Assembly: GCF_015752315.1 (NCBI RefSeq)
Contig: NZ_JADOVJ010000001.1
Coordinates: 3,030,501-3,094,500, forward strand
Direction of reading: 5' to 3'
DNA length: 64,000 bases
DNA from: Nocardioides luteus
GTDB lineage: Bacteria > Actinomycetota > Actinomycetes > Propionibacteriales > Nocardioidaceae
The notes beneath the pieces are model-generated. The model did not search any database. It was given only the letters and a program-made list of their open reading frames with translations, and was not told the DNA's origin. Positions 21,269 through 60,828 of this stretch are shown here, piece after piece. The position numbers and the translations under genes are program-made. Within the stretch, counting starts at the first letter, position 1, and every line of letters begins with the position of its first letter.

Positions 21269-22473
21269 GCATGTCCTCCGACCACGACCGTCACCTCCTG
21301 GTCGTCGGCGCCGGCCTGGCCGGGCTCCGTGCGGTCGAGGGCGCACGGCAAGCCGGCTGGACCGGACCGATCACGATCGTCGGCGACGAGCGGCACCCGC
21401 CCTACGACCGGCCACCGCTGTCCAAGGCGGCGCTCTCCGGCGAGGAGCAGCCGGCCGTGCCGGTGCTGCGGTCGAGCGAGGTGATCCAGGAGCTGCGGGT
21501 CCGGCATCTCGCCGGGGTGCGGGTCCACGGTCTCGACACCGAGCGTCGCACGGTCGCCACCAGCGCCGGGGAGCTCGACTACGACGCGCTCGTCATCGCC
21601 ACCGGCAGCACGGCGACGACGCTGCCCGGGCTGACCGGCCTCCCCGGTGTCCACGTGCTCCGTCGCTACGACGACGCGCTCGACGTACGCGACTCCCTGG
21701 CCCGCTCACGACGGATGATGATCGTCGGGGCCGGGTTCATCGGCTCCGAGATCGCCTCGGCGGCCCGCGCCCGTGGCATCGAGATCACCATCCTCGAGGC
21801 GGGCAGCCGCCCCCTCGAGCGCGCGGTCGGTCCGCACGCGGCCGGGCGGCTGATGGAGCTGCACGCCGAGGCCGGCGTCCGGCTGCTCACCCGGACCACC
21901 GTGTCCGGCGTACGCACCTCCGACCGTGGCGTCGACGCGGTCGAGCTGAGCACCGGTGAGACCCTGACGGCCGACGCCGTCGTCCTGGGCATCGGCGCCC
22001 GCCCGGCGACGGCATGGCTCGCCGGCAGCAACGTCGCCCTGGACGTACGCACCGGCGGGGTCCTCTGCGACCGCACGCTGGCCACCAGCGCTCCCGGGGT
22101 CTGGGCCGCGGGCGACGTGGCGTGCATCGACGGCGAGCGCGGCGAGCACTGGACCGCCGCCGGCGAGCAGGGCCGGGTCGCCGGCGCGAACGCCGCCGGG
22201 GCGGACGAGGTCTTCGCCTCCGTCCCGTTCGCCTGGTCGACCTGGCACGGTCGCCGGATCCAGGTCGTCGGGGAGACGACGGCGGCCGACGAGGAGGAGC
22301 GCGAGCCCGGGTTCATCGTCTACCGGCGCGGCGGAGACGAGGTGGGGGCGGTTGGCATCGACAGCCCCGGCCCCGTCGCCCGGATGCGCCGCGCCCTCGC
22401 CGCACAGGCTCCGGACCGACGCGCTCAGACGGCGGTGGCCGGGGGCGTGTCGGCGCGCGAGTCGCGGGAGTAG
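21265..22473 (+). CDS. FAD-dependent NAD(P)H:ferredoxin/rubredoxin reductase
   Basis: A 402-residue FAD reductase of the BphA4/rubredoxin reductase type. FAD site LVVGAGLAGLRAVEGARQAG at residues ~11-30, NAD(P)H site MMIVGAGFIGSEIASAARARGIEITILEAG (~150-180), and the second FAD motif TSAPGVWAAGDVA. It should transfer electrons from NAD(P)H to the adjacent ferredoxin or the AlkB rubredoxin domain. The start overlaps the ferredoxin stop (ATGA). The last ~16 residues are encoded over the 3' end of the convergent universal stress protein gene (49-bp overlap). Confidence 0.93.
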   Translation: MSMSSDHDRHLLVVGAGLAGLRAVEGARQAGWTGPITIVGDERHPPYDRPPLSKAALSGEEQPAVPVLRSSEVIQELRVRHLAGVRVHGLDTERRTVATSAGELDYDALVIATGSTATTLPGLTGLPGVHVLRRYDDALDVRDSLARSRRMMIVGAGFIGSEIASAARARGIEITILEAGSRPLERAVGPHAAGRLMELHAEAGVRLLTRTTVSGVRTSDRGVDAVELSTGETLTADAVVLGIGARPATAWLAGSNVALDVRTGGVLCDRTLATSAPGVWAAGDVACIDGERGEHWTAAGEQGRVAGANAAGADEVFASVPFAWSTWHGRRIQVVGETTAADEEEREPGFIVYRRGGDEVGAVGIDSPGPVARMRRALAAQAPDRRAQTAVAGGVSARESRE

Positions 22474-23318
22474 GCGGACGGCACCACCGCGACCACGCTG
22501 TGCGCATGGTCCAGGAGGTGGCCGGACACCCCACCGGGACCGCCGGTCACGACCATGTGCATGGTCCGGGACTGCTCGGCGAGGACGTGGGCGAGGCTTC
22601 CGGAGTGGATCCGGAGGCGTGGGTTCAGGTCCGGGTAGCGTTCCCGGAGCCCGGCGACGCACTCGGCGACCAGGGCCCGGTCGTCGTCGGTGCTGTCCGG
22701 GCCGCCGGCGCGGTAGCAGTACAGCACCGTGACCGGCAGGTTGCGCTGGGCGGCCTGGTCGAAGGCGAACTCGAGGGCCGGGATCGAGTCACCCGTCCCG
22801 TCGATGCCGACGAGGACACCCCGGCCCACTCCTCCGCCGCCGGGGCGCAGCACGACCACCGGGCAGCGCGCGTCCTTGACGGTCGACCGGCTGACCGAGC
22901 CGAGGATCCGGCTGCGGATCGGGCCTCGGCCCCGCGACCCGAGCACCAGCAACGACGCGTGGGCGGAGGCGGCGTCCAGCACGCGTGCCACGGATCCGGC
23001 CTCCAGCTCCACGCTCACGTCCGGGCGCCGGTGGCCGGCGAACCCGGGAGCCCTGGAGAGCTCGTCGAGGCGGCGGTCGGCATAGCGGCGGGCGCTGGCC
23101 AGCACGGTCGCCCCGTAGTCCTGCTCGGGCTCCGAGGGCGCACCTGCCCGGAATCCGGGCGGGGTGTCCAGGGTCGAGGCGGAGACCACGTGGAACAGGC
23201 ACATGTCGCGCCCGTCCCGGAACGCCTGCTCCGCCGCCCACGACACGCTCTCGGTCGCATCCGGCCAGTTCTCGACGCCGACCAGGACGGCACCCTCGGG
23301 GATCGCTGCGTACGTCAT
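22425..23318 (-). CDS. tandem universal stress protein (USP)
   Basis: A 297-residue protein with two UspA domains. Domain 1 (about residues 8-160) carries the canonical ATP-binding loop G-2x-G-9x-GS as GSRGRGPIRSRILGS; domain 2 (about 165-285) begins VLVGIDGTGDSIPALEFAFDQAA and is degenerate (GGPGGVSGHLLDHAHS). Probably an ATP-binding stress signalling protein. The ATG at 23318 has GGAG upstream. It is the last gene of an operon with the PNPOx-like and USP genes upstream, served by the DosR-type box at 24814. Confidence 0.9.
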   Translation of the reverse strand: MTYAAIPEGAVLVGVENWPDATESVSWAAEQAFRDGRDMCLFHVVSASTLDTPPGFRAGAPSEPEQDYGATVLASARRYADRRLDELSRAPGFAGHRRPDVSVELEAGSVARVLDAASAHASLLVLGSRGRGPIRSRILGSVSRSTVKDARCPVVVLRPGGGGVGRGVLVGIDGTGDSIPALEFAFDQAAQRNLPVTVLYCYRAGGPDSTDDDRALVAECVAGLRERYPDLNPRLRIHSGSLAHVLAEQSRTMHMVVTGGPGGVSGHLLDHAHSVVAVVPSAYSRDSRADTPPATAV

Positions 23319-23356
23319 CTCGACTCCTTCGCCTCTTCTCGTCTGCCACGTACTGC

Positions 23357-23773
23357 TCAGGTCGGCACGACGCGCCGGCCGGTGATCTCGGTCGGCGTGA
23401 TGCACACGAACAAGGTCCTTCGGCCGTTGGCCCAGGGCTCCGGCTCGAGGTCGTGGGCCTTGAGCCAGACGCCGTCGACGAACTCCGCGGTCCCACGAGC
23501 CAGCACGCTCCAGCCCGAGGAGGTGTAGGTGTCGAACTCGTCGATCTGGTACGACACCGGCCCGATGCCGACATGGTTGGAGATCGCGGTGCGCGGGGCG
23601 GTGCGGAAGACGATCCGGTCACCCACCATGACGTGGTTGACCGGCAGGACCAGCGGCCCGTCCGGGTCGCCGAAGGCGACGCGGCCGACCTCGTAGCGGT
23701 CCAGCAGCTCCAGGCACTCGGTGCGGTCCATCTCGGTCAGGTGACCGGGGAACCATCGTGCTGCGAGGTACAT
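23357..23773 (-). CDS. pyridoxamine 5'-phosphate oxidase-like flavin-binding protein
   Basis: A 138-residue split-barrel protein. ECLELLDRYEVGRVAFGDPDGPLVLPVNHVMVGDRIVFRTA near the N terminus is the standard opening of PNPOx-like FMN/F420-binding proteins, followed by VSYQIDEFDTYTSSGWSVLARGTAEFV. It could reduce a small molecule with a flavin or act as a haem or nitro-compound protein; the substrate is unknown. GGAG lies eight bases before ATG 23773. Located between two USP genes in the same operon. Confidence 0.88.
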   Translation of the reverse strand: MYLAARWFPGHLTEMDRTECLELLDRYEVGRVAFGDPDGPLVLPVNHVMVGDRIVFRTAPRTAISNHVGIGPVSYQIDEFDTYTSSGWSVLARGTAEFVDGVWLKAHDLEPEPWANGRRTLFVCITPTEITGRRVVPT

Positions 23774-23787
23774 CGTCGTCTCCTTCG

Positions 23788-24762
23788 TCACCGGCGTCCG
23801 GCTCCGGCCGACCGGTTGTTCGCTGTGGTGGGGCCGACCGTCGCCCCGGCGTCCCCCTCGAACGCCGGGGCCACGTGCGGGTCGATCTCGACGGGGCAGC
23901 TGCTCTCGCGGAGCACCGCCCGGGCGGTGCCGCCTAGGTGTCCGAAGCCGAGGAACTGACGGGCGCGGCCCAGGATCAGCAGCTCGGCCCGGCGCGACGC
24001 CTCCACCAGCGCGTACGCCGTCTGGGCGTGCACCACCTCGATGCGGGCGTCGACCGCTGCGGCCTCCGGGCCGCACTCGGCACGAGCCGTCTCGAGGGCC
24101 ACGCTGAGCTCCCGCTCGGCCCGCTCCGTCCAGGCCTGCTCCTCGCTGCCGACGGTCAGATAGTCCTGGTACGCCCCGAAGGTGTGCCACGCGTGCAGGA
24201 GGCGCAGCCTCGCGCCGCGCGCCGCCGCCACCTCCAGCCCACGGCGTACGAGGGCGATGGACGCGGCCGGGTCGTGGACCCCCACGACGATCTCGTGGGG
24301 CGAGCCCTCCCGCGGCCAGGCCGCCGGGACGACGACCATGGGCACCGGCGAGTGGGCCGCGACCGGGCCGATGATCGAGGAGGTGATGATCCGGTCGAAC
24401 CGGGCTCGTGGCTGGTCACCGAGCACGAGGAGGCGGGCTCTGGCTGCCTCCTGGGCCAGCACCGCCGACGGCTTCCCCAGCAGCAGGTACGTGCTCACGA
24501 CCGCGCCGCTGTTCGCCACCGCTTCCTCCGCCTCGGCGAGGATCGCGCGGCCGAGCTTGCCCATCCTCGAGTCGGGGTCGGTGTGCGCCGGCGGCCAGGT
24601 CGGCAGCGGCGGCGCGTACGGGTCGACCACGTAGACCAGGTGCAACGCGGAGCCGGACCGGACCGCCTCTGCGGCGCCGTAGCGGGCGGCAGCGATGCCG
24701 GCCTCGGTGCCGTCGACTCCTGCCAGGACGAGGTTCCTGGTTCCCTTGATTACTTCAGCCAT
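23788..24762 (-). CDS. tandem universal stress protein
   Basis: A 324-residue protein with two UspA domains: NLVLAGVDGTEAGIAAARYGAAEAVRSGSALHLVYVVDP starts domain 1, and HEIVVGVHDPAASIALVRRGLEVAAARGARLRLLHAW starts domain 2. The ATP loops are partly changed (LGDQPRARFDRIITSSIIG; LGRARQFLGFGHLGGTARAVL). The C-terminal ~30 residues are low complexity. ATG 24762 stands two bases after GGAG. First gene of the operon; the 74-bp upstream gap contains a DosR-type palindrome, so hypoxic DevR induction is inferred. Confidence 0.9.
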   Translation of the reverse strand: MAEVIKGTRNLVLAGVDGTEAGIAAARYGAAEAVRSGSALHLVYVVDPYAPPLPTWPPAHTDPDSRMGKLGRAILAEAEEAVANSGAVVSTYLLLGKPSAVLAQEAARARLLVLGDQPRARFDRIITSSIIGPVAAHSPVPMVVVPAAWPREGSPHEIVVGVHDPAASIALVRRGLEVAAARGARLRLLHAWHTFGAYQDYLTVGSEEQAWTERAERELSVALETARAECGPEAAAVDARIEVVHAQTAYALVEASRRAELLILGRARQFLGFGHLGGTARAVLRESSCPVEIDPHVAPAFEGDAGATVGPTTANNRSAGAGRR

Positions 24763-24791: not shown

Positions 24792-24833
24792 CACGACAGG
24801 GACCGTCGGCCCCGGCCAAGGGCCTTTGGTCGC
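24792..24833 (-). promoter_or_regulatory. DosR/DevR-type box pair upstream of USP operon
   Basis: Box 1 on the plus strand is GGCCAAGGGCCTTTGGTCGC (24814-24833), reading GACCAAAGGCCC toward the gene. A weaker second box with GACAGGGACCGTC lies at 24794-24806. Both fall in the short gap before the USP gene at 24762. Confidence 0.6.
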
Positions 24834-24836
24834 TCA

Positions 24837-27206
24837 TCACGACTCCTCCTCGGCCGCGAGCACCGTCTGCGTCACGGCGACCACCGAGTCCGGGGTGACA
24901 CTGATGGAGTCGATCCCGAGTCCGACCAGGACACGGACGACCTCCGGATGGTCGGAGGGCGCCTGGCCGCAGATGCCGGAGTGGATGCCATTGCGCCGGC
25001 AGCCCTCGACGGCGAGGCCGATCATCCGCTGCACCGCCGGGTCGCGCTCGTCGTAGTCGAAGGCGACCAGCTCGCTGTCGCGGTCGACGCCGAGGGTGAG
25101 CTGGGTCAGGTCGTTGCTGCCGATGGAGAAGCCGTCGAACCGCTCGGCGAACTCGTCGACCAGGATGACGTTCGAGGGGATCTCGCACATGGCGTAGACC
25201 TTCAGCCCGTGCTCGCCGCGCCGCAGGCCGAGCTCGGCCATCCGCGCCAGCACGCGATCGGCCTCGTCGAGGCGGCGCACGAACGGCACCATCACGACGA
25301 CGTTGTCCAGACCCATCTGCTCCCGGACCCGGCGCAGCGCGGCGCACTCGAGGGCGAATCCCTCCGTGTAGGCGGGGTGCGCGTAGCGGGCGGCGCCGCG
25401 AAAGCCGAGCATCGGGTTCGCCTCGCCCGGCTCGAAGGCCGCGCCGCCGAGGAGGGTGGCGTACTCGTTGGTCTTGAAGTCGGAGAGCCGCACGACGACG
25501 GGCTTGGGATGGAAGGCGGCGGCGATGGTGCCGATGCCCTCGGCCAGCCTCTCGACGACGTACGCCGCACCGTCCCCGCCGACGAGACGCTCGACCTCGG
25601 CGCGCTCCCCGGCATCGGTGATGCGCTCGGGGTGGAGCGCGGCGAGCGGGTGCACGCGCACGTGCTCGGCGAGGATGAACTCCATCCGAGCCAGGCCGAC
25701 CCCGTCGTTGGGCAGGAAGGACGACTCGAACGCGATCCCGGGGTTGCCGAGGTTGAGCATGACGTGCGTCCGCGGGCGCGCCGTCAGCGCGGTCGCGACG
25801 TCGTTCGCGTGGAAGTCGGCCAGGCCGCGATAGACGTGGCCCTCGTCGCCCTCGGCGCAGGAGACGGTGATCTCCTCGCCCTCGGTGATCGTGCTGGTCG
25901 CGTCACCGGTGCCGACCACGGCCGGGATGCCCAGCTCGCGGGCGACGATGGCGGCGTGGCAGGTGCGGCCGCCGTGCTCGGTGACGACCGCGGAGGCGAT
26001 CTTCATCAGCGGTTCCCAGTCCGGGCTGGTGCTGGGCGCGACCAGCACGTCGCCGGAGGCGAAGCCGTCGTCGTCCCCGATCCCGCGGACGATCCGGGCA
26101 CGGCCCGCCGCGACCCTCGCACCGACGGCGCGGCCGGTGGTGATCAGGTCTCCGTGGGCCTCGACCACGTACCGGGTCGTCGCGGTCGGCCGTCGCCGGG
26201 CAGCGACCGTCTCGGGGCGTGCCTGGACGACGTACAGCAGGCCGTCGGTGCCGTCCTTTGCCCACTCGATGTCCATCGGCTTGTCGTAGTGGCGCTCGAT
26301 GGTCATCGCCGCGCCGGCCAGCTCGAGCACCTCCTCGTCGGTGAGGCAGAAGCGGCCGCGGTCCTCGGGCGGCGTGGGCTCGTTCCGCACCGGCTCCTCC
26401 AGCGCCGTCTCCCCCAGCACCATCCGCACCGCCTTGCTCCCCAGGCGGCGGCTCAGCACGGCACGGTGGCCGGCTGCGTACGTCGGTTTGTGCACGTAGA
26501 ACTCGTCGGGCTCGACCAGCCCCTGGACGACGTTCTCGCCGAGGCCGTAGGAGCCGGTCACGAAGACGACGTCGCGGAATCCCGACTCGGTGTCGAGCGT
26601 GAAGGAGACCCCGGAGCAGGCGAGGTCGGAGCGCACCATCTTCATCACCCCGACCGACAGCGCCACCGACAGCTGGTCGTAGCCGTGCCGGGCGCGGTAG
26701 TCGACGGCCCGGTCGGTGAAGATCGAGGCGAAGCAGCGGCGTACGGCGTCGAGCAGTGCCTCCTCGCCCTGGACGTCGAGGAACGTCTCGTGCTGCCCGG
26801 CGAAGCTCGCGTCCGGCAGGTCCTCGGCCGTGGCCGAGGACCTGACCGCGAGCGCGACGTCGCTGCCGTACTCCTCGCGAAGGGCCTGGTAACCCGTCCG
26901 GATCTCGTCGACCAGGTCGGCAGGCAGCTCCGCGGAGAGCAGCAGCCTGCGTGCCCGGGCGGCGTGCTCGGCGAGGTTCTCGCGGTCGTCGACGTCGAGG
27001 TCGGCGAAGACGGTCGCGAGGGCCGAGTCGATGCCCGCGGCACTCAGGAAGCGGCGATAGCCGTCGGCCGTGACGGCGAACCCGTCGGGCACGCGGATGT
27101 CGCGGTCGTGGAGGCGGCGATACATCTCACCGAGAGAGGCGTTCTTGCCGCCGACCAGGGGCACGTCGTCGATGCCGATCTCGCCGAAGGTGCGTAGGTA
27201 GCTCAT
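24837..27206 (-). CDS. ppsA: phosphoenolpyruvate synthase
   Basis: A 789-residue enzyme, the usual length for PEP synthase (pyruvate + ATP + water to PEP + AMP + phosphate). The N-terminal ATP-grasp domain has VPLVGGKNASLGEM and SSATAEDLPDASFAGQHETFL; the phospho-histidine is in the central domain motif GGRTCHAAIVARELGIPAVVG; the C-terminal TIM barrel holds MLGFRGAARY, SIGSNDLTQLTLGVDRDSE and the catalytic Cys of SGICGQAPSD. No accessory PPDK domain was seen. It starts 10 bp after the DoxX-like gene, in the operon driven from the box pair at 27880-27917. A role in keeping PEP pools during hypoxia is inferred. Confidence 0.95.
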   Translation of the reverse strand: MSYLRTFGEIGIDDVPLVGGKNASLGEMYRRLHDRDIRVPDGFAVTADGYRRFLSAAGIDSALATVFADLDVDDRENLAEHAARARRLLLSAELPADLVDEIRTGYQALREEYGSDVALAVRSSATAEDLPDASFAGQHETFLDVQGEEALLDAVRRCFASIFTDRAVDYRARHGYDQLSVALSVGVMKMVRSDLACSGVSFTLDTESGFRDVVFVTGSYGLGENVVQGLVEPDEFYVHKPTYAAGHRAVLSRRLGSKAVRMVLGETALEEPVRNEPTPPEDRGRFCLTDEEVLELAGAAMTIERHYDKPMDIEWAKDGTDGLLYVVQARPETVAARRRPTATTRYVVEAHGDLITTGRAVGARVAAGRARIVRGIGDDDGFASGDVLVAPSTSPDWEPLMKIASAVVTEHGGRTCHAAIVARELGIPAVVGTGDATSTITEGEEITVSCAEGDEGHVYRGLADFHANDVATALTARPRTHVMLNLGNPGIAFESSFLPNDGVGLARMEFILAEHVRVHPLAALHPERITDAGERAEVERLVGGDGAAYVVERLAEGIGTIAAAFHPKPVVVRLSDFKTNEYATLLGGAAFEPGEANPMLGFRGAARYAHPAYTEGFALECAALRRVREQMGLDNVVVMVPFVRRLDEADRVLARMAELGLRRGEHGLKVYAMCEIPSNVILVDEFAERFDGFSIGSNDLTQLTLGVDRDSELVAFDYDERDPAVQRMIGLAVEGCRRNGIHSGICGQAPSDHPEVVRVLVGLGIDSISVTPDSVVAVTQTVLAAEEES

Positions 27207-27216
27207 GACCCTGCCG

Positions 27217-27804
27217 TCACCGCAGCCACGGGTGGTGCATGACGACCGGCATCCGTGCCCACTGCTTGCCGAAGCCCCAGGTGTCACCGGCGTACGTCAT
27301 GGCCAGGACGCCCACGGTGAGCGCACCGAGCAGGTGGTCGTCGATGATCGGGTTGTTGTCGAGCGGGAAGCTCGCGAACCACATCAGCACGTACATCGCC
27401 GCGCCGGCGATGGCGCCGACCCGCATCCCGATGCCGAACGTGAGGGTGAGCCCGACGCCGAGCAGGCCGAGCATGAACAGCCCGTCGACCCACCACTGAC
27501 CGGCCATGTCGTTCCACATGCCCTGCAGCCAGTTGTTCTCGGGCACGTTGGACAGGAAGCCGTCGGTGGGGCTGCCGCCGTTGACCCAGGCCGCATCCTT
27601 GGCGAAGAAGTCGATGCCCGTGCGGGTCCCGGCCTCGTTGGTGATCGCACCGGTGTGGAAGCCCAGCGCGAGCAGCTTGTCGAAGAAGGCCCACAGGAAC
27701 GTGAGCCCGAAGGCGATCCGCAGCGCCGCGAGCAGCCGCGCGGCGGGCATCGGGAAGTGCCCGGGCAGCGTCGTCGTGGAGCCGGGTGTGGAGATTGAGG
27801 TCAT
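27217..27804 (-). CDS. DoxX/DoxD-like membrane protein
   Basis: A 195-residue membrane protein with four hydrophobic segments: LLAALRIAFGLTFLWAFFDKLLALGF (about 22-47), GLFMLGLLGVGLTLTFGI, MRVGAIAGAAMYVLMWFASF and DHLLGALTVGVLAMTYAG. The first helix with its FDKL and a large periplasmic loop (GTRTGIDFFAKDAAWVNGG) resemble thiosulfate:quinone oxidoreductase DoxD relatives. The reaction is not proved. GGAGG precedes ATG 27804. First gene of an operon with ppsA. Confidence 0.82.
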   Translation of the reverse strand: MTSISTPGSTTTLPGHFPMPAARLLAALRIAFGLTFLWAFFDKLLALGFHTGAITNEAGTRTGIDFFAKDAAWVNGGSPTDGFLSNVPENNWLQGMWNDMAGQWWVDGLFMLGLLGVGLTLTFGIGMRVGAIAGAAMYVLMWFASFPLDNNPIIDDHLLGALTVGVLAMTYAGDTWGFGKQWARMPVVMHHPWLR

Positions 27805-27849: not shown

Positions 27850-27917
27850 AGCCAACCGCCGACGATGCCGTCGCGGCGAGGGAACGGGGTCCGCGCGAAG
27901 CGGGCCCTTCGTCCCCG
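27850..27917 (-). promoter_or_regulatory. paired DosR-type boxes and conserved -10-like TTGGCT (doxX-ppsA promoter)
   Basis: Plus-strand box 1 is CGGGCCCTTCGTCCCCG (27901-27917) and box 2 GGGAACGGGGTCC (27880-27892), with centres 22 bp apart. TTGGCT on the minus strand (27855-27850) lies 24 bp after box 2. The same layout recurs at 49785-49853 and 60762-60828. Confidence 0.65.
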
Positions 27918-27945: not shown

Positions 27946-28890
27946 TCACGAGCCGGTCACCTCCGCCGGCTGTGACCCCGACAGCTCGTCCGCCTCCACG
28001 ATGTCGAGCACCGGAGGCAGCACCTCGACAGGACAGCGGCTCACTCGCAGCAGCGCCCGGCCGGTGCTCCCGAGGCGACCCGCGGGGAAAGCGTGCCGGC
28101 GGCGGCCGATGACCAGCAGGTCGGACTCGGCCGCCGCGGCGGCGATCACCTGCGCCGGCTGCCCCTGGCGCACCTCGATGCGTACCTCGACCAGCGCCGC
28201 AGGCGCAGACCGATGACGTCGGGCCCGTTCGAGCGTGTCCTCGAGCTCGTGCCGCAGCGCGGCATCCCACTCGGCCAGGTCGCGCTGCGAGAGCGACAGG
28301 CCGTCGTACGGGGTGGGCACCTGCCAGACGTGCAGGATGACCAGCTCGGCGCCGCGATCGGCCGCTTCGCTCATCGCACGGGCGACCAGCCCGGCGGCGT
28401 CGTCGCAGTCCTTGACCGCGACGACGACACGGTCGGCGCCGGCGCCCGCGGGCCACGGCTCCGGGACGACGGCGACCGCCACCGGGGCGTACCCGGCGAC
28501 CCGGTTGACCACGGAGCCCGTGAAGATCCGCTCCAGGGCGGAGTGGTGGTGGCCGCCCAGCACGACGAGCCGCGTCGCGGCCGCCATCTGCACGAGCCCG
28601 TCGGCGGCGTCACCCCGCACGAGCGTCGAGGTGACGCGGTCGGCCGGCGCCAGCGTCATCGCCTCCTTCACCGCCCTCTCCAGCAGCCCTGCCCCGAGCT
28701 CACGGTCGTGGCCGACGGGCGTCGGCGCGATGTACGGGTAGACGACGCCGGGGACGGTCGGAGGCGGCGCTACGTGGACCAGCCACAGCTCGTCTCCGCT
28801 GCGTTCGGCGTCGGCCGCCGCGTATCTGAGCGCCGCCCGACCACCCTCCCCACCGTCGATACCGACCAGGATCCGTGCTGTCTCGGACAT
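27946..28890 (-). CDS. tandem universal stress protein
   Basis: A 314-residue double UspA protein. Domain 1 starts RILVGIDGGEGGRAALRYAAADAERSGDELWLVHVA; domain 2 starts RVVVAVKDCDDAAGLVARAMSEAADRGAELVILHVW. The nucleotide loops are LGGHHHSALERIFTGSV and IGRRRHAFPAGRLGSTGRALL, so the second Gly is replaced in both. GGAGGAGG stands before ATG 28890. It is close in sequence to the USP at 32915-33865 (same GIDGGEGGRAA, HAF/HSFP-GRLGSTGRALL and SRCPVE motifs), suggesting a local duplication. Driven by the box at 28984. Confidence 0.9.
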   Translation of the reverse strand: MSETARILVGIDGGEGGRAALRYAAADAERSGDELWLVHVAPPPTVPGVVYPYIAPTPVGHDRELGAGLLERAVKEAMTLAPADRVTSTLVRGDAADGLVQMAAATRLVVLGGHHHSALERIFTGSVVNRVAGYAPVAVAVVPEPWPAGAGADRVVVAVKDCDDAAGLVARAMSEAADRGAELVILHVWQVPTPYDGLSLSQRDLAEWDAALRHELEDTLERARRHRSAPAALVEVRIEVRQGQPAQVIAAAAAESDLLVIGRRRHAFPAGRLGSTGRALLRVSRCPVEVLPPVLDIVEADELSGSQPAEVTGS

Positions 28891-50048: not shown

Positions 50049-51793
<1,745 letters not shown>

Positions 51794-51797
<4 letters not shown>

Positions 51798-52845: not shown

Positions 52846-53831
52846 CGACGGCGACCGCGCTGGAGACCACCTATCGCGACATGCTCCGGGAGGCGCTGCG
52901 CGAGGCGCTCCGCGAGGACGACCGGGTGTTCCTGATGGGTGAGGACGTCGGCGACTACGGCGGCTGCTTCGCGGTGAGCCTCGGTCTTCTGGAGGAGTTC
53001 GGTCCTGAGCGGATCCGGGACACCCCCCTCTCCGAGTCGGCGTTCGTCGGCGCCGGGATCGGAGCGGCGATCGGGGGGATGCGGCCGGTCGTCGAGATCA
53101 TGACCGCCAACTTCAGCCTGCTCGCGCTGGACCAGATCATGAACACCGCGGCATCGCTTCTCTACATGTCCGGCGGGCAGTACAACGTACCCCTGGTGAT
53201 CCGGATGACCACCGGCGCCGGACGGCAGCTGGCCGCGCAGCACTCGCACAGCCTCGAAGGGTGGTACGCCCATATCCCGGGCATCCGCGTGCTCACGCCG
53301 GCCACGCTCGAGGATGCCCGCGGCATGCTCTCCCCCGCGCTCGCCGACCCCGACCCCGTGCTCATCTTCGAACACGGCTCGTTGTACACGCTGAAGGGGA
53401 CGATCGCCGCCGATGCCGGCCCGGTCGACATCGACCACGCCGCCATCCGCCGACCAGGCACCGACCTGTCGTTGATCACCTACGGCGGCACCTTGCAGAA
53501 GACGCTCGAGGCGGCCGAGACCCTGGCCGGGGACGGGATCTCCGCCGAGGTCGTCGACCTACGCACCCTGCGCCCGCTCGATGACGCGACGATCCTCGAC
53601 TCGGTGCGCCGTACGCACCGAGCCGTCGTCGTGGACGAGGGCTGGCGCAGCGGCAGCATCTCCGCCGAGATCAGTGCCCGGATCATGGAGCAGGCCTTCT
53701 ACGACCTCGATGCTCCGGTGCAGCGGGTCTGCACCACCGAGGTGCCTCTCCCGTACGCCAAGCACCTCGAGGATGCCGCGCTCCCGCAGCCCGAGGGCAT
53801 CGTCGCCGCCGCTCGCAGGCTGATGAGGTGA
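52842..53831 (+). CDS. 2-oxoacid dehydrogenase E1 beta
   Basis: A 329-residue E1-beta subunit (transketolase pyrimidine-binding plus C domain): [104 protein letters not shown]. With E1-alpha it decarboxylates a 2-oxoacid (pyruvate or acetoin-like). The start overlaps the E1-alpha stop (ATGA). E2 follows three bases after its stop. E3 is not in the window. Confidence 0.94.
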
Positions 53832-53834
53832 GCC

Positions 53835-55055
53835 ATGGCCGACTTCACCATGCCCTCGCTGGGAGCCGACATGGACGAGGGCACGCTCCAGGAGTGGCTG
53901 GTCAAACCCGGTGACACCGTCCACAAGGGCGACATCGTCGCCGTGGTGGACACCGCCAAGGCCAACATCGAGGTGGAGTCCTTCGTGGAAGGCGTCGTCC
54001 AGCAGCTGCTCGTCGAACCGGGGACCACCGTCCCCGTCGGACAGGTCCTCGCGGTCCTCGGGAACGGAGTCGCCACGGCGTCTTCCGCTGAGGAACCTGC
54101 CGAGCCGCCGGCCCCGGCCGAAGCACCACCTACCCCGCCGCCCACCTCCCCACCTGTCGCGTCGGAGAGCGCCCCGGAGGAGGCCAGGGTGGCTGCCGAG
54201 CGGCCCGGGTCGGTCCGCGTCACGCCGCTCGCACGACGCCTGGCAGCCGAGCTGGGTGTCGACCTGGGAACGGTGACGACGACGGACGACGCGCCGATCC
54301 GCGCGAAGGACGTACGCGCCGCCGCAGCCGTCCTGCGCCCGGCTCCGGAGCCGACCTCCGAGGAACCCGGCCCCGCGCAACAGCCGTCGAAGGCGGAGGC
54401 GATGCGCACCGTGATCGCCAACCTGATGAGCCGTTCGAAGCGCGAGGTTCCCCACTACTACCTCTCGACGACGGTCGATCTGGCACCGGCGATGGCATGG
54501 CTGCATGAGCGCAACCGTGCCCTCGACGTCAGCCACCGGCTGGTGCCGGCGGCACTGATGCTGAAGGCGACAGCGCTCGCCGCGCAGGCGACGCCGGCGC
54601 TGAACGGCTTCTGGGTCGACGGCGGCTTCACCCCCGGCGGCGCGGTGCACCTGGGCATCGCGATCTCCCTTCGCGGCGGTGGACTGGTAGCCCCCGCGCT
54701 GCACGACGCGGCCGACCTCTCCGTCGAGGAGCTGATGGCGGGGATGCGAGACCTGGTGACGCGCGCCCGCGCAGGGCGCCTGCGTGGCAGCGAGCTCAGC
54801 GACTCGACCATCACGGTCACCAACCTCGGCGAGCAGGGCGTGGAGGCGGTGCACGGGGTCATCTACCCGCCGCAGGTGGCGCTGGTGGGCTTCGGCCGCG
54901 TCGTCGAACGGCCCTGGGCGGTGGACGGCCTCATCGGCGTACGTCCTGTCACCACTCTCACTCTCGCGGGCGACCACCGCGCCACCGACGGCTTCACCGG
55001 CGCCCGCTTCCTCACCGACATCGAGCAACGACTCCAGCACCCGGAGGAGCTATGA
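53835..55055 (+). CDS. 2-oxoacid dehydrogenase E2 (dihydrolipoyl acyltransferase)
   Basis: A 406-residue E2: one lipoyl domain (residues 1-75) with lipoylated K42 in DTAKANIEVES, an Ala/Pro linker (~76-120), an E3/E1-binding domain (~125-165, VTPLARRLAAELGVDLGTV), and a catalytic trimer domain with H381 in DHRATDGFTGARFL. It transfers the acyl group from lipoamide to CoA. Its stop overlaps the ACP start (ATGA). The single lipoyl domain fits acetoin- or short PDH-type complexes. Confidence 0.94.
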   Translation: MADFTMPSLGADMDEGTLQEWLVKPGDTVHKGDIVAVVDTAKANIEVESFVEGVVQQLLVEPGTTVPVGQVLAVLGNGVATASSAEEPAEPPAPAEAPPTPPPTSPPVASESAPEEARVAAERPGSVRVTPLARRLAAELGVDLGTVTTTDDAPIRAKDVRAAAAVLRPAPEPTSEEPGPAQQPSKAEAMRTVIANLMSRSKREVPHYYLSTTVDLAPAMAWLHERNRALDVSHRLVPAALMLKATALAAQATPALNGFWVDGGFTPGGAVHLGIAISLRGGGLVAPALHDAADLSVEELMAGMRDLVTRARAGRLRGSELSDSTITVTNLGEQGVEAVHGVIYPPQVALVGFGRVVERPWAVDGLIGVRPVTTLTLAGDHRATDGFTGARFLTDIEQRLQHPEEL

Positions 55056-55330
55056 CCCACGACGCCACCATGTCTCCCGCTGCCGCCCGGGCCGCGATCG
55101 CCGCCGTGATCCGGCGGATCGTGCCCGACGCCGACCTCGACGGGCTCGCCGACGACGACCCCATCCGCGCCGAGCTCGAGCTCGACTCGCTGGACTTCCT
55201 CTCCTTCGTCGAGCTGCTCAGTGACGCGACGGGCATTCGTATCGACGAGTCCGACTACCCGGACCTCTCGACGATGGCGCGCGCCATCTCGTTCCTGACG
55301 GCTCGCGGCACCGTCCACGGAGACGGATAG
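55052..55330 (+). CDS. acyl carrier protein
   Basis: A 92-residue ACP: four-helix pattern with the phosphopantetheine site S46 in LELDSLDFLSFVELL, and acidic composition. It begins inside the E2 stop codon (55052), so it is made with the dehydrogenase complex. An ACP here could receive the acyl group from E2, or serve lipoate/octanoyl supply, instead of the usual fatty-acid role. No ketosynthase or acyltransferase genes adjoin it. Confidence 0.88.
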   Translation: MTHDATMSPAAARAAIAAVIRRIVPDADLDGLADDDPIRAELELDSLDFLSFVELLSDATGIRIDESDYPDLSTMARAISFLTARGTVHGDG

Positions 55331-55431: not shown

Positions 55432-56919
55432 TCAGAGCCCCATCGTGCCGATCACGGTCTCCAAGGTCTCGGCGACAGGGGCGTCGGTGGACACCGCCAA
55501 GGCTCCCCGCCAAGGCGTCTCGGCGCGGCTCATGCTGGCTGCGATCTTCTCGTCGGCATCCGAGATGTCGTCGCGAGCCGCGATCCGGGCGGCCGCCATC
55601 TCGGGGGCTACCTCGCAGTGCAGGACGCTGAGGGTGCTGTACGTCGTGCGCGCGGCCTCCTCGACGAGGACCCGGTGTGCCGGGTCCGTCCAGGAGGCGT
55701 CGAGCACGACGGACTCTCCGTGGGCGAGCAGTGTCGTCGCCCGCTGGAGCAGCTCGGAGTACGTCTTGGCCGTCCATGCGGGGCTGTAGATGCCCTCTTG
55801 CCACCCAGCCGCAGCATGGTGTTCCGGGTCGATGCCGGCGATCTCCTTGCGCAGCTGGTCGCTGCTGAGCACGACCATGCCCAGTCGGGCGGCAAGCCCT
55901 CGGGCCAGGGTCGACTTCCCCGTTCCCGGGGATCCTGCGACGGCGACGAGTCTGACCTCTCCACGGCGCAGGTGGTCGCGGGCGAGCTCTGCGAGGCGTA
56001 CGGCCTCGCCGGCGGAGTCCCGGGCTCGCTGCCAGGAATGAGCCTGCTCGGTGCGCAGCGCCGTCACCTTGGCCCGCATGAACGCCCGGTACGCGATGTA
56101 GTGGTCCGCGAGGGACTCGGGGTAGATGTCCGCCCCGAACTCACGGTAGGCGGCCATCAGCTCCGCCGCGAGGTGGGCTCCTCCGAGCCGCTCGAGATCC
56201 ATCGCCAGGCAGGCGACGTCATCGAGGCCGTCGAGGCGGCGCAGACGGTCGTCGAACTCGAGGCAGTCGAGGATGCGCGGACCGTCGGGCAGGCAGAAGA
56301 TGTCGTCGGCGAGGAGATCTCCGTGGCCGTCGATGACTCGCCCGGTGTCGACCCGCTCGGCGAACAATGGCTCGCGGCCCTCGATGTAGCGGCTGCTGAG
56401 CCGCTCGACCTCGTCGACGAGGCCGTCGTCGAGAAGCCTGCCTCGAAACCGGGCCACCTCGTCCAGATTGTGCCGCCAGCGCGACCTGAGGGCCGACACG
56501 CCACCCTCGTCCGCGATCTCGGGTCCTCGCTCGGCACGAGCGTGGAAGGCGGCGACGACCCGCGCGATCCTGCGCACCTCCTCCGCGACGGGCTCCCCCT
56601 GGCGCACCAGCGTGGCAAGACGCCGGTCGTCGGGCATACGCCGCATCACGATCCCGGGCTCGGACGAACCGTCGGCCAGCGGCAGCTCGACCAGGCCCAC
56701 GTACACGTCCGATGCGAGCCGGCGGTTGAGCTCCAGCTCCCGACGACACACCTGGCGCCGCACCTCCTGCTCGCGAAAGTCCAGGAACACCAGGTCGACG
56801 GGCTTCTTCAGCTTGTACGCGGTCTGCCCGACGAACACGACGAGCCCCGAGTGGGTCTCACGCACCCCTCCGTATGCCTCACCGTCGATCCCCACCGGCA
56901 TCGGCTCGGTCTCGGTCAC
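55432..56919 (-). CDS. aminoglycoside phosphotransferase-like / AAA kinase fusion (Rv2004c-like)
   Basis: A 495-residue protein. The N-terminal ~320 residues look like a phosphotransferase/kinase fold (VVFVGQTAYKLKKPVDLVFLDF as the Lys-containing strand, VIDGHGDLLADDIFCL as the HGD catalytic motif, LDCLEFDDRLRRLD as the metal motif). The C-terminal ~160 residues are a P-loop kinase (VAVAGSPGTGKSTLARGLAARLG, SSDQLRKEIAG). Mycobacterial Rv2004c, a DosR-regulon protein, has this architecture. Its start overlaps the alcohol dehydrogenase stop (ATGA). Last gene of a three-gene operon from 60754. Confidence 0.87.
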   Translation of the reverse strand: MTETEPMPVGIDGEAYGGVRETHSGLVVFVGQTAYKLKKPVDLVFLDFREQEVRRQVCRRELELNRRLASDVYVGLVELPLADGSSEPGIVMRRMPDDRRLATLVRQGEPVAEEVRRIARVVAAFHARAERGPEIADEGGVSALRSRWRHNLDEVARFRGRLLDDGLVDEVERLSSRYIEGREPLFAERVDTGRVIDGHGDLLADDIFCLPDGPRILDCLEFDDRLRRLDGLDDVACLAMDLERLGGAHLAAELMAAYREFGADIYPESLADHYIAYRAFMRAKVTALRTEQAHSWQRARDSAGEAVRLAELARDHLRRGEVRLVAVAGSPGTGKSTLARGLAARLGMVVLSSDQLRKEIAGIDPEHHAAAGWQEGIYSPAWTAKTYSELLQRATTLLAHGESVVLDASWTDPAHRVLVEEAARTTYSTLSVLHCEVAPEMAAARIAARDDISDADEKIAASMSRAETPWRGALAVSTDAPVAETLETVIGTMGL

Positions 56920-57938
56920 AACGGCACCGAGGTTCTGGTCAGACCGTTCATCTCGAGGACCGCGACGCCGCGTACCCGGTCCTCGGCGAGGTCTGCGAGT
57001 GCCCGGTCGGCATAGCCCATGGGGTAGCGGGTCACCTCGGCGTGGAGCCCCAGCCGACCAGCGAGCCGGAAGAGCTCGGCCCCGTCGGCCCGGGTGTTCG
57101 AGGTGACGCTGGTGAGCGTCCGCTCACGAAAGAGATCGTGCTGGTAGTCGAGCGGCGGGATGTCGGAGAGGTGGATACCTGCTACCGCACAGGTGCCACC
57201 GGCTTCGAGACCGGCGAGCGCCTCACGAACGACCTCACCGGCCGGCGCGAACACGATCGCCGAGTCGAGCGGCGGCACGACACCGCCAGGACCGACCGCG
57301 GTGACCGCGCCGAGTTCGAGCGCGAGCCGGCGCGCCTCCTCGCCGCGGGTGACGACATGCACCTCGGCGCCCTGATGGATCGCGATCTGCGCGGTCAGGT
57401 GGGCGCTCGCCCCGAACCCGTAGAGGCCCAGCCGGCCTCCCGGTGGGAGCGCCGAACGGCACAAGGCGCGATAGCCGATGATCCCCGCGCACAGCAGCGG
57501 CGCCGCCTGGACCGGAGTCAGCGGCTCCGGGATCACGTAGGTGTAGTCGATCGGCGCCACGGCATACTCGGCATAGCCCCCATCGGCGTCCCAACCGGTG
57601 TAGCGAGACTGCTCGCAGAGGTTCTCGGCGCCGCTCCGGCACCATCGGCACCGACCGCAGGTGGAGCGCAGCCAGGGCACCCCGACCCGGGCACCGACCT
57701 CGGGCGCACCCACCTCGTGGTCGCCGCGAGCCAGCACCCGGCCCACGATCTCGTGTCCCGGCACCACCGGGCTGCGGTGGCGGGGAAGGTCACCGTCGAC
57801 GACGTGCAGGTCCGTCCGGCAGACTCCGCACGCCTCCACCGCGATGAGGACCTCCCCTGGGGCCGGTTCAGGCACCTTGATCTGGCCGGCCGACAGGCGG
57901 CCCTCGCCGGCCGTTCTCCATCCGAGCATGGTCGCCAT
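56916..57938 (-). CDS. zinc-dependent alcohol dehydrogenase (medium-chain)
   Basis: A 340-residue MDR alcohol dehydrogenase. Catalytic zinc ligands C and H/E in VEACGVCRTDLHVVDGDLP and VPGHEIVG; structural zinc Cys set in STCGRCRWCRSGAENLC; nucleotide loop LGLYGFGASAHLTAQIAI. The AdhA-like length fits aldehyde reduction in fermentation. ATG 57938 overlaps the stop of the GNAT-ligase gene (TGATG). It is the middle gene of the operon, so hypoxic NADH disposal is a likely role. Confidence 0.92.
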   Translation of the reverse strand: MATMLGWRTAGEGRLSAGQIKVPEPAPGEVLIAVEACGVCRTDLHVVDGDLPRHRSPVVPGHEIVGRVLARGDHEVGAPEVGARVGVPWLRSTCGRCRWCRSGAENLCEQSRYTGWDADGGYAEYAVAPIDYTYVIPEPLTPVQAAPLLCAGIIGYRALCRSALPPGGRLGLYGFGASAHLTAQIAIHQGAEVHVVTRGEEARRLALELGAVTAVGPGGVVPPLDSAIVFAPAGEVVREALAGLEAGGTCAVAGIHLSDIPPLDYQHDLFRERTLTSVTSNTRADGAELFRLAGRLGLHAEVTRYPMGYADRALADLAEDRVRGVAVLEMNGLTRTSVPL

Positions 57939-60754
57939 CAGGTGCCCACGTCCGACCCGCCCGGCCCGATCGGAGGGCGCAGTCGCCTCAGGTCCGGGTC
58001 GGGTGCCTGCGCGGCCGGGTGCAGTCGAACCTTCGCGTCGACGACCGAGACACCGCGCTCGTGCACGATCACGGGATTGAGGTCGATCTCGGCGACCTCC
58101 GGAAGATCGTCGGCAAGACGGCCGAGACACACGAGGAGGTGCTCGACGGCGGCTGCGTCGGCCGCCGGCGCGCCGCGGTAGCCGGTGAGCAGCGGCGCGG
58201 TGCGCAAGTCCGCGATCGCAGCGGCCGCGTCGGCACGGCAGAGCGGCGTCAGGAGGAAGCTGCGGTCCTCGATCAGCTCGGTGTACACACCGCCGTACCC
58301 CACCATCACCAGGGGCCCGAAGACCTTGTCCTGGGTGACGCCGGCGATCAGCTCGACGCCGGCGGGGACCTGACGCTGGACGAGCAGGCCCGGACGCTCG
58401 GCCGCGATGCCGAGGAGCTCGTGCGCGGCGAGACGCACCTCGTCGGGACTCCTCAGACCGAGTCGTACGCCGCCGACGTCGGTGCGATGCGCGAGCGGGT
58501 CGGCGACCTTGACCACCACGGGATACCCCACCCACTCTGCGGCGTCGACCGCCTCCTCCGCACCGTCGGCCAGGACGCTCGGCAGCACCCCGATCCCGTA
58601 CGCAGCGAGCAGCTGCCGAGCGTCCGGCTCGGGGAGCCGGCACCCCTCGGGGGCCACCCGCAGCGTGCGGGCGACCACCTCACGGGCAGTCGCCCGGCTC
58701 CCGGCAGGCGCCTCGGAGACCGGGGTGTGGGGCTCGGCGCGCCACTCGGCGTAGCGGGCGATCGGGCCGAGGGCACGGGCGGCGTCCTCGGGGAACGAGA
58801 ACACGGGCACACGATGGTCACCGGCGCTGATCGGGCGGCTCGGGCCGTGCGGGTCGAGCATCACCGCGATGGTCGTCACCGGGGGTGCGTCCTCGTCCGA
58901 GCCGGCTCGCAACGCGGTGCGCAGCGCGCGGGTGAAGGATGCGTAGGAGAGGCCGGGCAGCGGGGTGCGCAGCGCGATCAGCATGTCGATCTCACCGCTG
59001 CGGGCGATCGTCGAGACCACCTCGGAGTAGGCCTCCCAGCCGACGTCGGAGCCGAGGTCGACGGGCATCTGCACGGACGAGGCGTCCGGCACGATCTCCC
59101 GGATCGCGGCCATGGTCTCGGCGCTCAGCGTCGTGAGCCGCAGCCCCTCGCTCGCGCAGGCGTCGGCGGCCAGGATCCCCGGGCCACCGGCGTTGCTGAC
59201 GATCCCGACCCGGCGACCGCCGGGCAGGGGCTGGTTCGCGAGCACACTGGTGGTCTGCAGCAGCTGCTCGAGGCCGTGCACGCCGATCACCCCACACTGC
59301 CGGAAGAGCGCGTCCACCGCGTCCGCGGACGTCACCGCCGAAGCGGTGTGGCCGAGAGCTCCCTGCCGGCCCGCATGGCTGCTGCCGCCCACCAGGGCGA
59401 CGACCGGCTTGTGTGCGCCCAGCCGCCTGGCCAGACGGGAGAACTTGCGCGGGTTGCCGAACGACTCCAGGTAGAGCGCGACCACGTCGGTGGCGTGGTC
59501 CTCGGCTGCGTACATGAGGAGGTCGTTGCAGCTGACGTCGGCCTTGTTGCCGGAGGAGATGAACGCCGACAGGCCCACGCCGAGCTCTTCGGCCCGCTGC
59601 AGCGCCGCGATCCCCACCGCGCCGGACTGGGTCATCATCGCCACCCGTCCGCGTCCTGCGCTCATGGGCGAGAAGGTGGCGTCCAGCCGGACGTCGGGAT
59701 CGGTGTTGGCGACACCGAGGCAGTTGGGACCCACCACACGCATCCCCGATCCGCGGGCGATCGCCAGGACCTCGTCCTGCAGACGCTGCCCCTCCGGGCC
59801 CGCCTCGGCGAAGCCGCTGGAGAGGATCACCACGTCGCGCACGCCGCCCTGGGCGCACTCGCGTACGACCTTCGGCACCTCGGCGGCGGGCACCGCGAGG
59901 ACCGCCAGATCCACCGGTGCGACATCGAGTATCGAGGAGTGGCAACGCATCCCCAGCAGGTAGTCGCAGTGCGGGTTGACGGGATGGACGGTGCCGGTGA
60001 ACCGGGCCCGCAGCAGGTTGCGCACGACCTGGTGGCCGGGGTGGGACTCGCGCCGGCTCGCACCGATCACGGCCACCGAGCGTGGCCGCAGCAGGGTGCC
60101 GATCGAGTCGGCGTCCGCGCGTTGTTCACGAGCGGCCATCGCCGCCAGCACGCGCTCGGTGAGCCGCACCGGGAAGCGCACCTCGACGGTCTCCCGGTGC
60201 GGGGACGAGGTGAGCTCGAACCCGGCATGGTGAAGCACGTCGAACGCGGCGGCGTTGTCGGCCATCACGTACGTCACCAGATCGGTCACGCCCGCCTCGG
60301 ACGCCGCGACCGCCAGATGCTCGAGGAGCAGGGTGGCCACGCCGCGATGGACGTACCGGTCGGCGACGACCACCGCCAGCTCGGCCTCCCCATCTCCTGC
60401 CGCCCTCGTGCAGCTCGCCAGTCCGGCGATGTGACCGTCGACGACCGCGACCTTCGCGACCGCCTCGCCGTCGGCAAGCCGTGGCAGCAGACCCTCGACG
60501 AACCGCGCGGCGTCGAGGTCGCCGACGTGGAAGAACCGCTCGTAGCGATGCCGGTCGGAGAGCTCCTCGTGGAGGTGGACCAGCCGGTCCCGGTCCCCTG
60601 GCGCCGCGTCACGTACGCGGGCGATCGTGCCGTCGCGCAGGAGCACGTCCTCGCCCGCCGGCCCGGTGCCCACCTCCGACCGTCCGATCACCCTGCTACC
60701 TCCTGCTGTCGATCCCTCTGCTGCCGATCTCTCTGCTGTCGGTCTCTGCACCAT
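57938..60754 (-). CDS. GNAT domain fused to acyl-CoA synthetase (ADP-forming)
   Basis: A 938-residue fusion. N-terminal GNAT domain at about residues 40-205 (RVRDAAPGDRDRLVHLHEELSDRHRYERFFHVGD, VADRYVHRGVATLLLEHLAVAASEAGV); CoA-binding and ligase domains at ~225-690 (SVAVIGASRRESHPGHQVVRNLL, MTQSGAVGIAALQRAEELG, and phospho-His motif GALGHTASAVTSADAVDALFRQCG); ATP-grasp domain at ~720-920 (YPVVVKVADPLAHRTDVGGVRL). The ligase half can form ATP from acyl-CoA; the GNAT half is as in Pat-type protein acetyltransferases. Start may be ATG 60754 or GTG 60760. First gene of its operon, behind the box pair at 60791-60828. Confidence 0.92.
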   Translation of the reverse strand: MVQRPTAERSAAEGSTAGGSRVIGRSEVGTGPAGEDVLLRDGTIARVRDAAPGDRDRLVHLHEELSDRHRYERFFHVGDLDAARFVEGLLPRLADGEAVAKVAVVDGHIAGLASCTRAAGDGEAELAVVVADRYVHRGVATLLLEHLAVAASEAGVTDLVTYVMADNAAAFDVLHHAGFELTSSPHRETVEVRFPVRLTERVLAAMAAREQRADADSIGTLLRPRSVAVIGASRRESHPGHQVVRNLLRARFTGTVHPVNPHCDYLLGMRCHSSILDVAPVDLAVLAVPAAEVPKVVRECAQGGVRDVVILSSGFAEAGPEGQRLQDEVLAIARGSGMRVVGPNCLGVANTDPDVRLDATFSPMSAGRGRVAMMTQSGAVGIAALQRAEELGVGLSAFISSGNKADVSCNDLLMYAAEDHATDVVALYLESFGNPRKFSRLARRLGAHKPVVALVGGSSHAGRQGALGHTASAVTSADAVDALFRQCGVIGVHGLEQLLQTTSVLANQPLPGGRRVGIVSNAGGPGILAADACASEGLRLTTLSAETMAAIREIVPDASSVQMPVDLGSDVGWEAYSEVVSTIARSGEIDMLIALRTPLPGLSYASFTRALRTALRAGSDEDAPPVTTIAVMLDPHGPSRPISAGDHRVPVFSFPEDAARALGPIARYAEWRAEPHTPVSEAPAGSRATAREVVARTLRVAPEGCRLPEPDARQLLAAYGIGVLPSVLADGAEEAVDAAEWVGYPVVVKVADPLAHRTDVGGVRLGLRSPDEVRLAAHELLGIAAERPGLLVQRQVPAGVELIAGVTQDKVFGPLVMVGYGGVYTELIEDRSFLLTPLCRADAAAAIADLRTAPLLTGYRGAPAADAAAVEHLLVCLGRLADDLPEVAEIDLNPVIVHERGVSVVDAKVRLHPAAQAPDPDLRRLRPPIGPGGSDVGT

Positions 60755-60761
60755 GACCACC

Positions 60762-60828
60762 AGCCAACCGCCGCCGCTCCTCGACCGTGAGAGAAGTGAG
60801 TCCGGACGCGTCGGGCCCTTCGTCCCGG
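60762..60828 (-). promoter_or_regulatory. paired DosR-type boxes and -10-like TTGGCT before GNAT-ligase operon
   Basis: Box 1 CGGGCCCTTCGTCCCGG (60812-60828), box 2 GAGAAGTGAGTCCGGA (60791-60806), centres ~22 bp apart; AGCCAA at 60762-60767 reads TTGGCT on the minus strand, 23 bp after box 2. Box 1 ends just before the ABC permease stop at 60833. Confidence 0.65.

Follow-up and report, generated by a model that had tools for sequence, protein, structure and literature searches.

A probable DevR/DevS-type regulon gathered in one chromosomal island of Nocardioides luteus, with a candidate arginine-fermentation operon

The 64,000-nucleotide stretch of the Nocardioides luteus chromosome analysed here (the window; G000:C1:3030501-3094500 of a single-contig genome of 5,821,697 bases) carries genes for a DevR-type response regulator (37480-38148, minus strand) and a DevS-type sensor kinase (35685-37307, minus strand) amid many genes of low-oxygen type. 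We called genes by codon usage and scanned their products against Pfam and NCBIfam; start codons and unit borders are therefore approximate. The next 30 kb were also read, and positions above 64000 are continued coordinates (the L001 coordinate plus 64000). On this basis the island runs from 22425 to about 77051 (L001:13051), spanning 54.6 kb or 0.94% of the genome, and includes 16 of the 22 universal stress protein (USP) domain matches found in a genome-wide search. A sequence-only reading of the window had closed the block at 60828, which is the final base of a box at 60811; the island in fact extends about 13 kb beyond the window, where it holds two USPs, two P-type ATPases, a CBS protein and an arginine deiminase operon.

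A palindromic box of the form GGGACC-WW-GGTCCC recurs between the island genes, in most units 43-130 bp 5' of the start codon. The leftmost unit (22425-24762, minus strand) encodes two two-domain USPs, USP1 and USP2, flanking a pyridoxamine-oxidase-like protein (Pfam); its DevR-type box lies at 24818-24835, with a fraction of 0.000 of background promoters scoring at or above it by the other-genome motif described below, and a weaker second box lies at 24797. Next on the same strand are a DoxX-like protein (match under its cut-off) with phosphoenolpyruvate (PEP) synthase (24837-27804; box at 27900-27917), USP3, with two USP domains in Pfam (27946-28914; box with the exact core GGACCTTGGTCC at 28984-29001), and USP4 (29290-30141), which lacks a top-5% box of its own by the window or the other-genome motif and is perhaps read through from the gene upstream of it. 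That gene (30248-30967, minus strand) encodes a protein without a Pfam match, and a comparison with the 80 devR loci from other genomes (E 1e-10, half coverage) showed no match to it either. The DevR-type box upstream of it, at 31024-31041, lies in a divergent promoter shared with a SHOCT-like protein and an SDR oxidoreductase (31129-32258, plus strand). USP5 and a 203-residue protein without a Pfam match (32271-33865, minus strand) follow an exact-core box at 33960-33977. The regulatory unit itself (33981-38148, minus strand) consists of devR, devS and a SulP transporter with a STAS domain (33981-35642), and a DevR-type box at 38204-38221 stands 65 bp 5' of devR, making autoregulation possible.

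To the right of devR, a DUF4389 protein (38243-38995, minus strand) diverges from a flavodoxin-like protein and an Acg-type nitroreductase (39121-40660, plus strand) across a box with the exact core GGACCTAGGTCC (39029-39046). A box at 42412-42429 lies between the divergent Hsp20 unit (40700-42337, minus strand; Hsp20 at 41915-42337, then a USP fusion protein at 40700-41911) and the PfkB phosphofructokinase (42514-43488, plus strand), and another, at 43545-43562, precedes a DUF2157-like protein (match under its cut-off) and an ABC ATPase (43681-45488, plus strand). The formate dehydrogenase unit (45474-49731, minus strand) pairs an alpha subunit (45474-48179; TIGR01591, 800 bits against a cut-off of 666) with a NuoE/F-type partner (48184-49731). 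Boxes at 49835-49852 and 49948 separate it from a plus-strand unit (50049-55330) with an AMP-binding acyl-CoA synthetase, genes that we take to encode the E1alpha, E1beta and E2 components of a 2-oxoacid dehydrogenase, and a small carrier protein; E1alpha and E1beta have no box of their own. The E1alpha frame (51914-52845) breaks near 52650, whether in reality or through an assembly error, its apparent last 50 or so residues continuing in another frame, and the carrier-like protein (PP-binding) closes the 2-oxoacid dehydrogenase genes at 52842-55330. E1/E2 genes are neighbours of devR at L082, L094, L099 and L100 too, which are loci of Kitasatospora, Embleya and Yinghuangia.

The last operon wholly within the window (55432-60691, minus strand; box at 60811-60828) encodes an ADP-forming acyl-CoA synthetase with a GNAT domain (57938-60691), a zinc alcohol dehydrogenase (56916-57938) and a protein with an AAA_33 kinase match (55432-56919). 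Presumed ABC exporter genes (60833-64000, minus strand) follow USP7 (L001:160-1047) as the 3' portion of one boxed unit, beyond which an exact-core box (L001:1133, continued 65133) precedes a P-type ATPase gene (L001:1317-3914, plus strand). The arginine deiminase operon (L001:3938-11075, minus strand) is headed by boxes at L001:11162 and L001:11184 (75162 and 75184) and is followed by a protein with a CBS pair (L001:11308-11937, plus strand) and USP8 (L001:12134-13051, plus strand). Flanking the island are, to the right of USP8, an operon that we read as sugar transport and, to the left, a separate operon (18346-22473) of what we take to be alkane hydroxylase, rubredoxin, ferredoxin and ferredoxin reductase genes behind a PucR-like regulator.

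The genes named in the sequence-only reading are present: devR, devS, PfkB, the formate and alcohol dehydrogenases, the ADP-forming acyl-CoA synthetase, a PEP synthase above its NCBIfam cut-off (24837-27206), an Acg-type nitroreductase (39677-40660), for which 2ymv (Acg) is the sole PDB match at E <= 0.001, and the AAA_33 kinase protein, which may correspond to its Rv2004c-like fusion. Its six tandem USPs do exist, each with two USP-domain matches (22425-23318, 23788-24762, 27946-28914, 29290-30141, 32915-33865 and 40700-41911), but they are spread across the block rather than encoded by adjacent genes. The Hsp20 is generic by sequence, and its supposed likeness to HspX found no specific support.

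The USP at 40700-41911 carries an N-terminal Rv2632c-like domain (Pfam, 2.2e-11) ahead of its two USP domains. A search with the Rv2632c-like domain returned 12 proteins including the query, all 392-407 residues long and all with both Pfam families; two have named sources, both Nocardioides (best 8000 candidates scored). The fusion protein matches 2jax (TB31.7), presumably Rv2623, in the PDB, with weak matches (E 0.007-0.008) to Rv1738 (4wpy) and Rv2632c (2fgg); its predicted structure (mean pLDDT 62) is too weak for a fold search. As judged from these matches, a USP fused to an Rv2632c-like domain is a new part of such an island.

The regulator and the sensor both resemble their mycobacterial counterparts in detail. 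The best PDB match of the island DevR is Mycobacterium tuberculosis DevR (3c3w; 220 bits, 106 of 205 aligned residues identical, 52%), and its nearest named relatives are Nocardioides proteins (N. ferulae, 76%). It combines receiver and GerE domains and keeps all nine residues checked: D8, D9, D54, T82, K104, K179, K182, N183 and T205, which include the phosphorylatable Asp and the recognition-helix residues K179, K182 and N183 of the DevR/DosR class. DevS has the two GAF stretches, HisKA_3 and HATPase domains of DevS/DosT sensor kinases, and its GAF-A domain best matches 2vzw (163 bits), which we take to be DosT, and DevS structures. In an alignment by eye (540-residue start numbering), His106 falls at heme His149, Tyr128 at distal Tyr171, and Gly42 at the position of DevS E87, as in DosT. 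Roles for the heme His and the distal Tyr have been described, and Glu87 in DosS versus Gly in DosT has been linked, not without dispute, to different oxygen access, according to a review (PMC4082495). We infer from these family relationships that DevS may bind heme and sense O2. A second devS/devR pair lies elsewhere in the genome (L134:7798-16099; G000:C1:4278798-4287099); its DevR is 59% identical to the first, and its neighbours are presumably cytochrome bd oxidase subunits and a CydDC-type exporter.

We asked how far the box is specific to the island. The exact pattern GGACCWWGGTCC, picked after the island motif had been seen, occurs five times in the 5.82 Mb genome, four of them in the island. 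With up to one mismatch there are 54 genomic sites, 7 in the island, against 144 for the reversed control pattern. The sole exact copy outside the island (L023:5117; G000:C1:1394617) lies in an intergenic gap between genes that we take to be HemW-like and PspC-like. A one-mismatch site near the second devR (4281261) was considered as a promoter element and dropped, as it lies inside a neighbouring gene call.

The matrix nCGGGACctagGTCCCGn was built solely from devR upstream regions at the 80 loci of other genomes, and the background was 400 kb of the same N. luteus genome taken at 20 even places. By this matrix 15 of 23 island units fall in the top 5% of 207 background promoters, nine of them in the top 1%; with shared divergent regions counted once, 11 of 17 promoter regions, that of devR included, fall in the top 5%. 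Sites scoring at least 10 number 10 in 3.17 kb of intergenic island sequence and 3 in 37.06 kb of intergenic background, or 12 and 25 once coding sites are included. The M. tuberculosis 14-bp core (up to three mismatches) matches 7 times in the 54.6 kb island and 7 times in the 400 kb, and the core of the consensus from a Rhodococcus equi paper 3 times and once, respectively. In the reverse direction, a matrix trained on the window and applied to the 80 devR loci finds 0.43 sites per kb between genes and 0.04 per kb within them, a difference of about tenfold. Three probes were set aside: the literal M. tuberculosis 20-mer gave two matches only, at the set limit of five mismatches; the Streptomyces coelicolor consensus, used as a string with up to four mismatches, was little enriched (7 island sites, of which 1 is intergenic, and 33 sites in 400 kb); and the window-trained matrix, which puts 19 of the island's 23 units in the top 4%, would be circular as proof. 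A palindrome of the GGGAC-N4-GTCCC class, enriched relative to the genome, therefore stands upstream of member units, as in a DosR-type regulon. Equal frequency of the boxes elsewhere, the outcome that the sequence-only reading had named as fatal to its proposal, was observed neither for the one pattern across the whole genome nor for the matrices in 400 kb.

Several results weigh against a single regulon. De novo discovery between the island genes returned the palindrome aGGACCTWGGTCCt, which has the spacing of the mycobacterial box, with a likelihood (60.3) inside the range of 40 matched control sets (median 54.8, maximum 65.8), and in a leave-one-out test 7 of the 24 regions between genes reached the top 5%. 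Since the control sets gave similar likelihoods, de novo discovery alone proves little, and for this reason we turned to motifs that originate outside the window. By the S. coelicolor matrix no more than 10 of 23 units pass. USP4, E1alpha, E1beta-E2-carrier and USP8 have no top-5% box of their own even by the window-trained motif, each of these unboxed units having a boxed unit, or another of the four, 5' of it on its own strand. By the other-genome motif the promoter of USP7 and the P-type ATPase misses the 5% line (0.072, at another site), as does that of the arginine operon and the CBS protein (0.068). The proposal that the whole block forms one regulon accordingly rests on the 15 of 23 units, or 11 of 17 distinct promoter regions, noted above, the others having weaker boxes or needing read-through. 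The palindromes might alternatively be driven by composition or bound by a different regulator, the genes merely clustering. The de novo likelihoods would fit this explanation, as would the background's own high scorers (12 scoring at least 14 in 400 kb, 2 of them intergenic, compared with 7 in the island, all intergenic). We consider it highly improbable, given that across the genome the reversed control outnumbers the pattern, that four of the pattern's five exact copies lie in the island, that a motif learned at devR promoters elsewhere picks out much the same sites, and that a box stands before devR itself. Taken with the gene content, the regulator and sensor residues and the recurrence of parts of the island in relatives, this makes it likely that the island is a DevR/DevS (DosR/DosS-type) regulon brought together at a single chromosomal site in a Nocardioides-type actinobacterium, outside the mycobacteria and contiguous as in S. 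coelicolor, much as the sequence-only reading had proposed.

The arginine deiminase operon of the island reads antiporter, arcA (arginine deiminase), ornithine carbamoyltransferase (OTC), arcC (carbamate kinase) and P-type ATPase, with gaps of at most 23 bp. ArcA scores above the NF002381 cut-off and below that of TIGR01078, OTC above that of TIGR00658, and carbamate kinase above that of NF009008 and below that of TIGR00746; the antiporter is closest to TIGR00905, below its cut-off. Together, arcA, a catabolic OTC, carbamate kinase and an antiporter make up a fermentative arginine deiminase operon. A second arcA in the genome (G000:C1:5370430) has no OTC or arcC match within the surrounding 8 kb. 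In 7 of 61 genomes of the family, this one included, arcA lies within 35 kb of devR. Among the 80 devR loci, arcA is in the fetched flank of L024, L028, L030 and L085, and OTC and arcC are in that of L103; L028 and L103 also have P-type ATPase genes alongside, and in L140 such a gene heads the operon.

By the other-genome matrix, six of eight devR-linked arginine operons and 2 of 18 unlinked ones score above the 95% line (Mann-Whitney p 4e-5), a p-value that, like others here, is rough because genomes are not independent samples. The linked set leaves out the N. luteus operon and L085, whose devR promoter trained the motif; L030 and L103 went unscored (locus edge), and the unlinked set is 18 of 20, L151 and L158 having been dropped because the operon start is off the locus. 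The linked operons below the line are L139, whose genes are poorly called and whose higher site further upstream (14.0 at 9296) was not counted, and L024; the unlinked operons above it are L150 and L157. The N. luteus island operon itself lies above this line (7.7 versus 7.1). By the window matrix, again with the N. luteus operon left out of the linked group but with L085 kept in it, 7 of 9 linked and 2 of 18 unlinked operons score at least 10; the latter two are L157 and the genome's own unlinked arcA (L165), which scores 11.2 by this matrix and 2.3 by the other-genome matrix.

Box and kinship mostly agree. In an arcA tree with long branches, 10 of the 11 linked genes share a clade with L157, divided between two deep branches, and the remaining one (L136) has L150 as its partner in a different clade; linked arcA genes therefore occur in at least two separate clades. 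L150 and L157, each a complete ArcA-OTC-ArcC operon remote from every devR listed, are both boxed and encode ArcA proteins that pair with devR-linked ones. The complete unlinked operon L163 is without a box. In a class-wide sample, arcA of this similarity is present in 43 of 197 genomes. Two or more arcA genes occur in 15 of 35 genomes with DevR and 3 of 26 without, a difference (p 0.01) that ignores genome size, completeness and kinship and on which we do not lean. In two genomes of another family, two arcA genes lie side by side (G080:C207:24715-27175 and G101:C70:11846-14308).

The operon could also be a chance neighbour that answers to acid or arginine rather than to DevR. Its own box is moderate (top 6.8% by the other-genome matrix, 13.5% by the S. 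coelicolor matrix), which counts both for this explanation and against DevR control; the two linked operons under the 95% line point the same way, and among the matches listed no arcA lies within 35 kb of devR outside the family (197 class genomes, by eye). Set against this are the excess of boxed operons among the linked ones, the N. luteus operon included, the cases of L150, L157 and L163, and the recurrence of the arcA-devR linkage within the family, and on balance we regard a chance neighbour as rather unlikely. We lean instead, with some reserve, towards the view that in Nocardioidaceae a dedicated operon for arginine fermentation, distinct from the other arginine deiminase and in several cases accompanied by a P-type ATPase, came under the DevR switch on more than one occasion. 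Substrate-level ATP synthesis would then be triggered directly as the cell enters low-oxygen dormancy, and the Rv2632c-USP fusion would join two dormancy protein classes in one chain. Among the open-literature titles and starts of abstracts listed, none ties arginine deiminase to DevR control. In the available parts of the sources, M. tuberculosis arcA is tied to anaerobic arginine use (in a reference title) and to one dormancy model (PMC5071874, PMC8044303, PMC4221891), that of potassium starvation, in which it is raised, direct DosR control not being stated there. Arginine use in dormancy is thus not new, as M. tuberculosis arcA is already on record; what is new, relative to the literature searched, is an arginine deiminase module headed by DevR-type boxes within an island.

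By homology, the island genes would be induced by hypoxia and serve in dormancy, and we propose the following sequence of events. DevS would bind heme through the first of its GAF domains and stay silent while O2 is bound; as O2 falls, it would phosphorylate DevR, which could then bind the GGGACC-WW-GGTCCC palindromes and switch on both the island at large and the devR gene. The products would maintain the cell without growth at low oxygen, with ATP-sensing USPs and the chaperone sustaining it, carbamate kinase of the arginine deiminase pathway, the ADP-forming acyl-CoA synthetase and glycolysis (PfkB) supplying ATP without respiration, the formate and alcohol dehydrogenases and the nitroreductase keeping redox balance, and the P-type ATPases keeping ion balance. 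Such an island would offer a contiguous dormancy regulon outside the mycobacteria whose regulator, boxes and cargo could be deleted as units, and it suggests that ATP supply by arginine fermentation is possibly a programmed part of the DevR response.

The same boxes might instead serve an island for general stress or redox responses that DevR controls through a signal other than oxygen (e.g. NO, CO, redox state or stationary phase). Microlunatus, a genus of the same bacterial order, has a DevS/DevR-like pair that bears on this point and also weighs against the scheme above. PolS-PolR of Microlunatus phosphovorus is tied to oxygen by its authors, and PolR is reported to have the motif GTTCACnnnnnGTTCaC and phosphate targets and to bind more with oxygen than without it (PMC6754071). 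S. coelicolor OsdR controls stress and developmental genes (PMC5069765), and the DevS-type sensor class answers several ligands (PMC4082495). However, at the E87 position DevS has Gly as DosT does, a state linked in the same review, though with dispute, to stable O2 binding (PMC4082495), and the cargo, with its arginine deiminase and its formate and alcohol dehydrogenases, has a fermentative look. We therefore see a signal other than oxygen as a minority prospect and retain oxygen as the presumed signal of the N. luteus island.

Regulons of this kind are known, and among the closest is the contiguous OsdR/OsdK island of S. coelicolor (SCO0167-SCO0219; PMC5069765). There, devR-devS homologues are likewise surrounded by most of the genome's USPs (8 of 11 USPs there, 16 of 22 USP domains here), a pyruvate dikinase-type enzyme, a nitroreductase, a zinc alcohol dehydrogenase and a pyridoxamine oxidase are shared, and palindromes are predicted upstream of many units (PMC5069765). 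The S. coelicolor island has nitrate reductase and nitrate transport (PMC5069765), neither of which we noticed in general scans of 22425-77051, which included no search aimed at them and no family scan of the E1/E2 and ABC genes; we regard such nitrate genes as cargo that varies between islands rather than as a defining trait. The N. luteus island, unlike that of S. coelicolor, has arginine deiminase (words absent from the main text of PMC5069765), formate dehydrogenase, 2-oxoacid dehydrogenase and ADP-forming acyl-CoA synthetase. Its box is GGGACC-WW-GGTCCC, compared with AGGGCCGATCGGCCCT in S. coelicolor. The likeness to the M. tuberculosis DosR/DevR regulon lies in the regulator and sensor residues and in a box of equal core length and spacing, with C/G here in place of T/A at inner positions. 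USPs, an Acg nitroreductase, Hsp20, PfkB, CBS proteins and P-type ATPases are classes of M. tuberculosis DosR member that also occur here; the genes are scattered in M. tuberculosis and contiguous in N. luteus. Finally, the R. equi DosR consensus, given as NNNGGGHCNWWNGNCCCBNN (PMC2947987), has a core that fits three island sites exactly.

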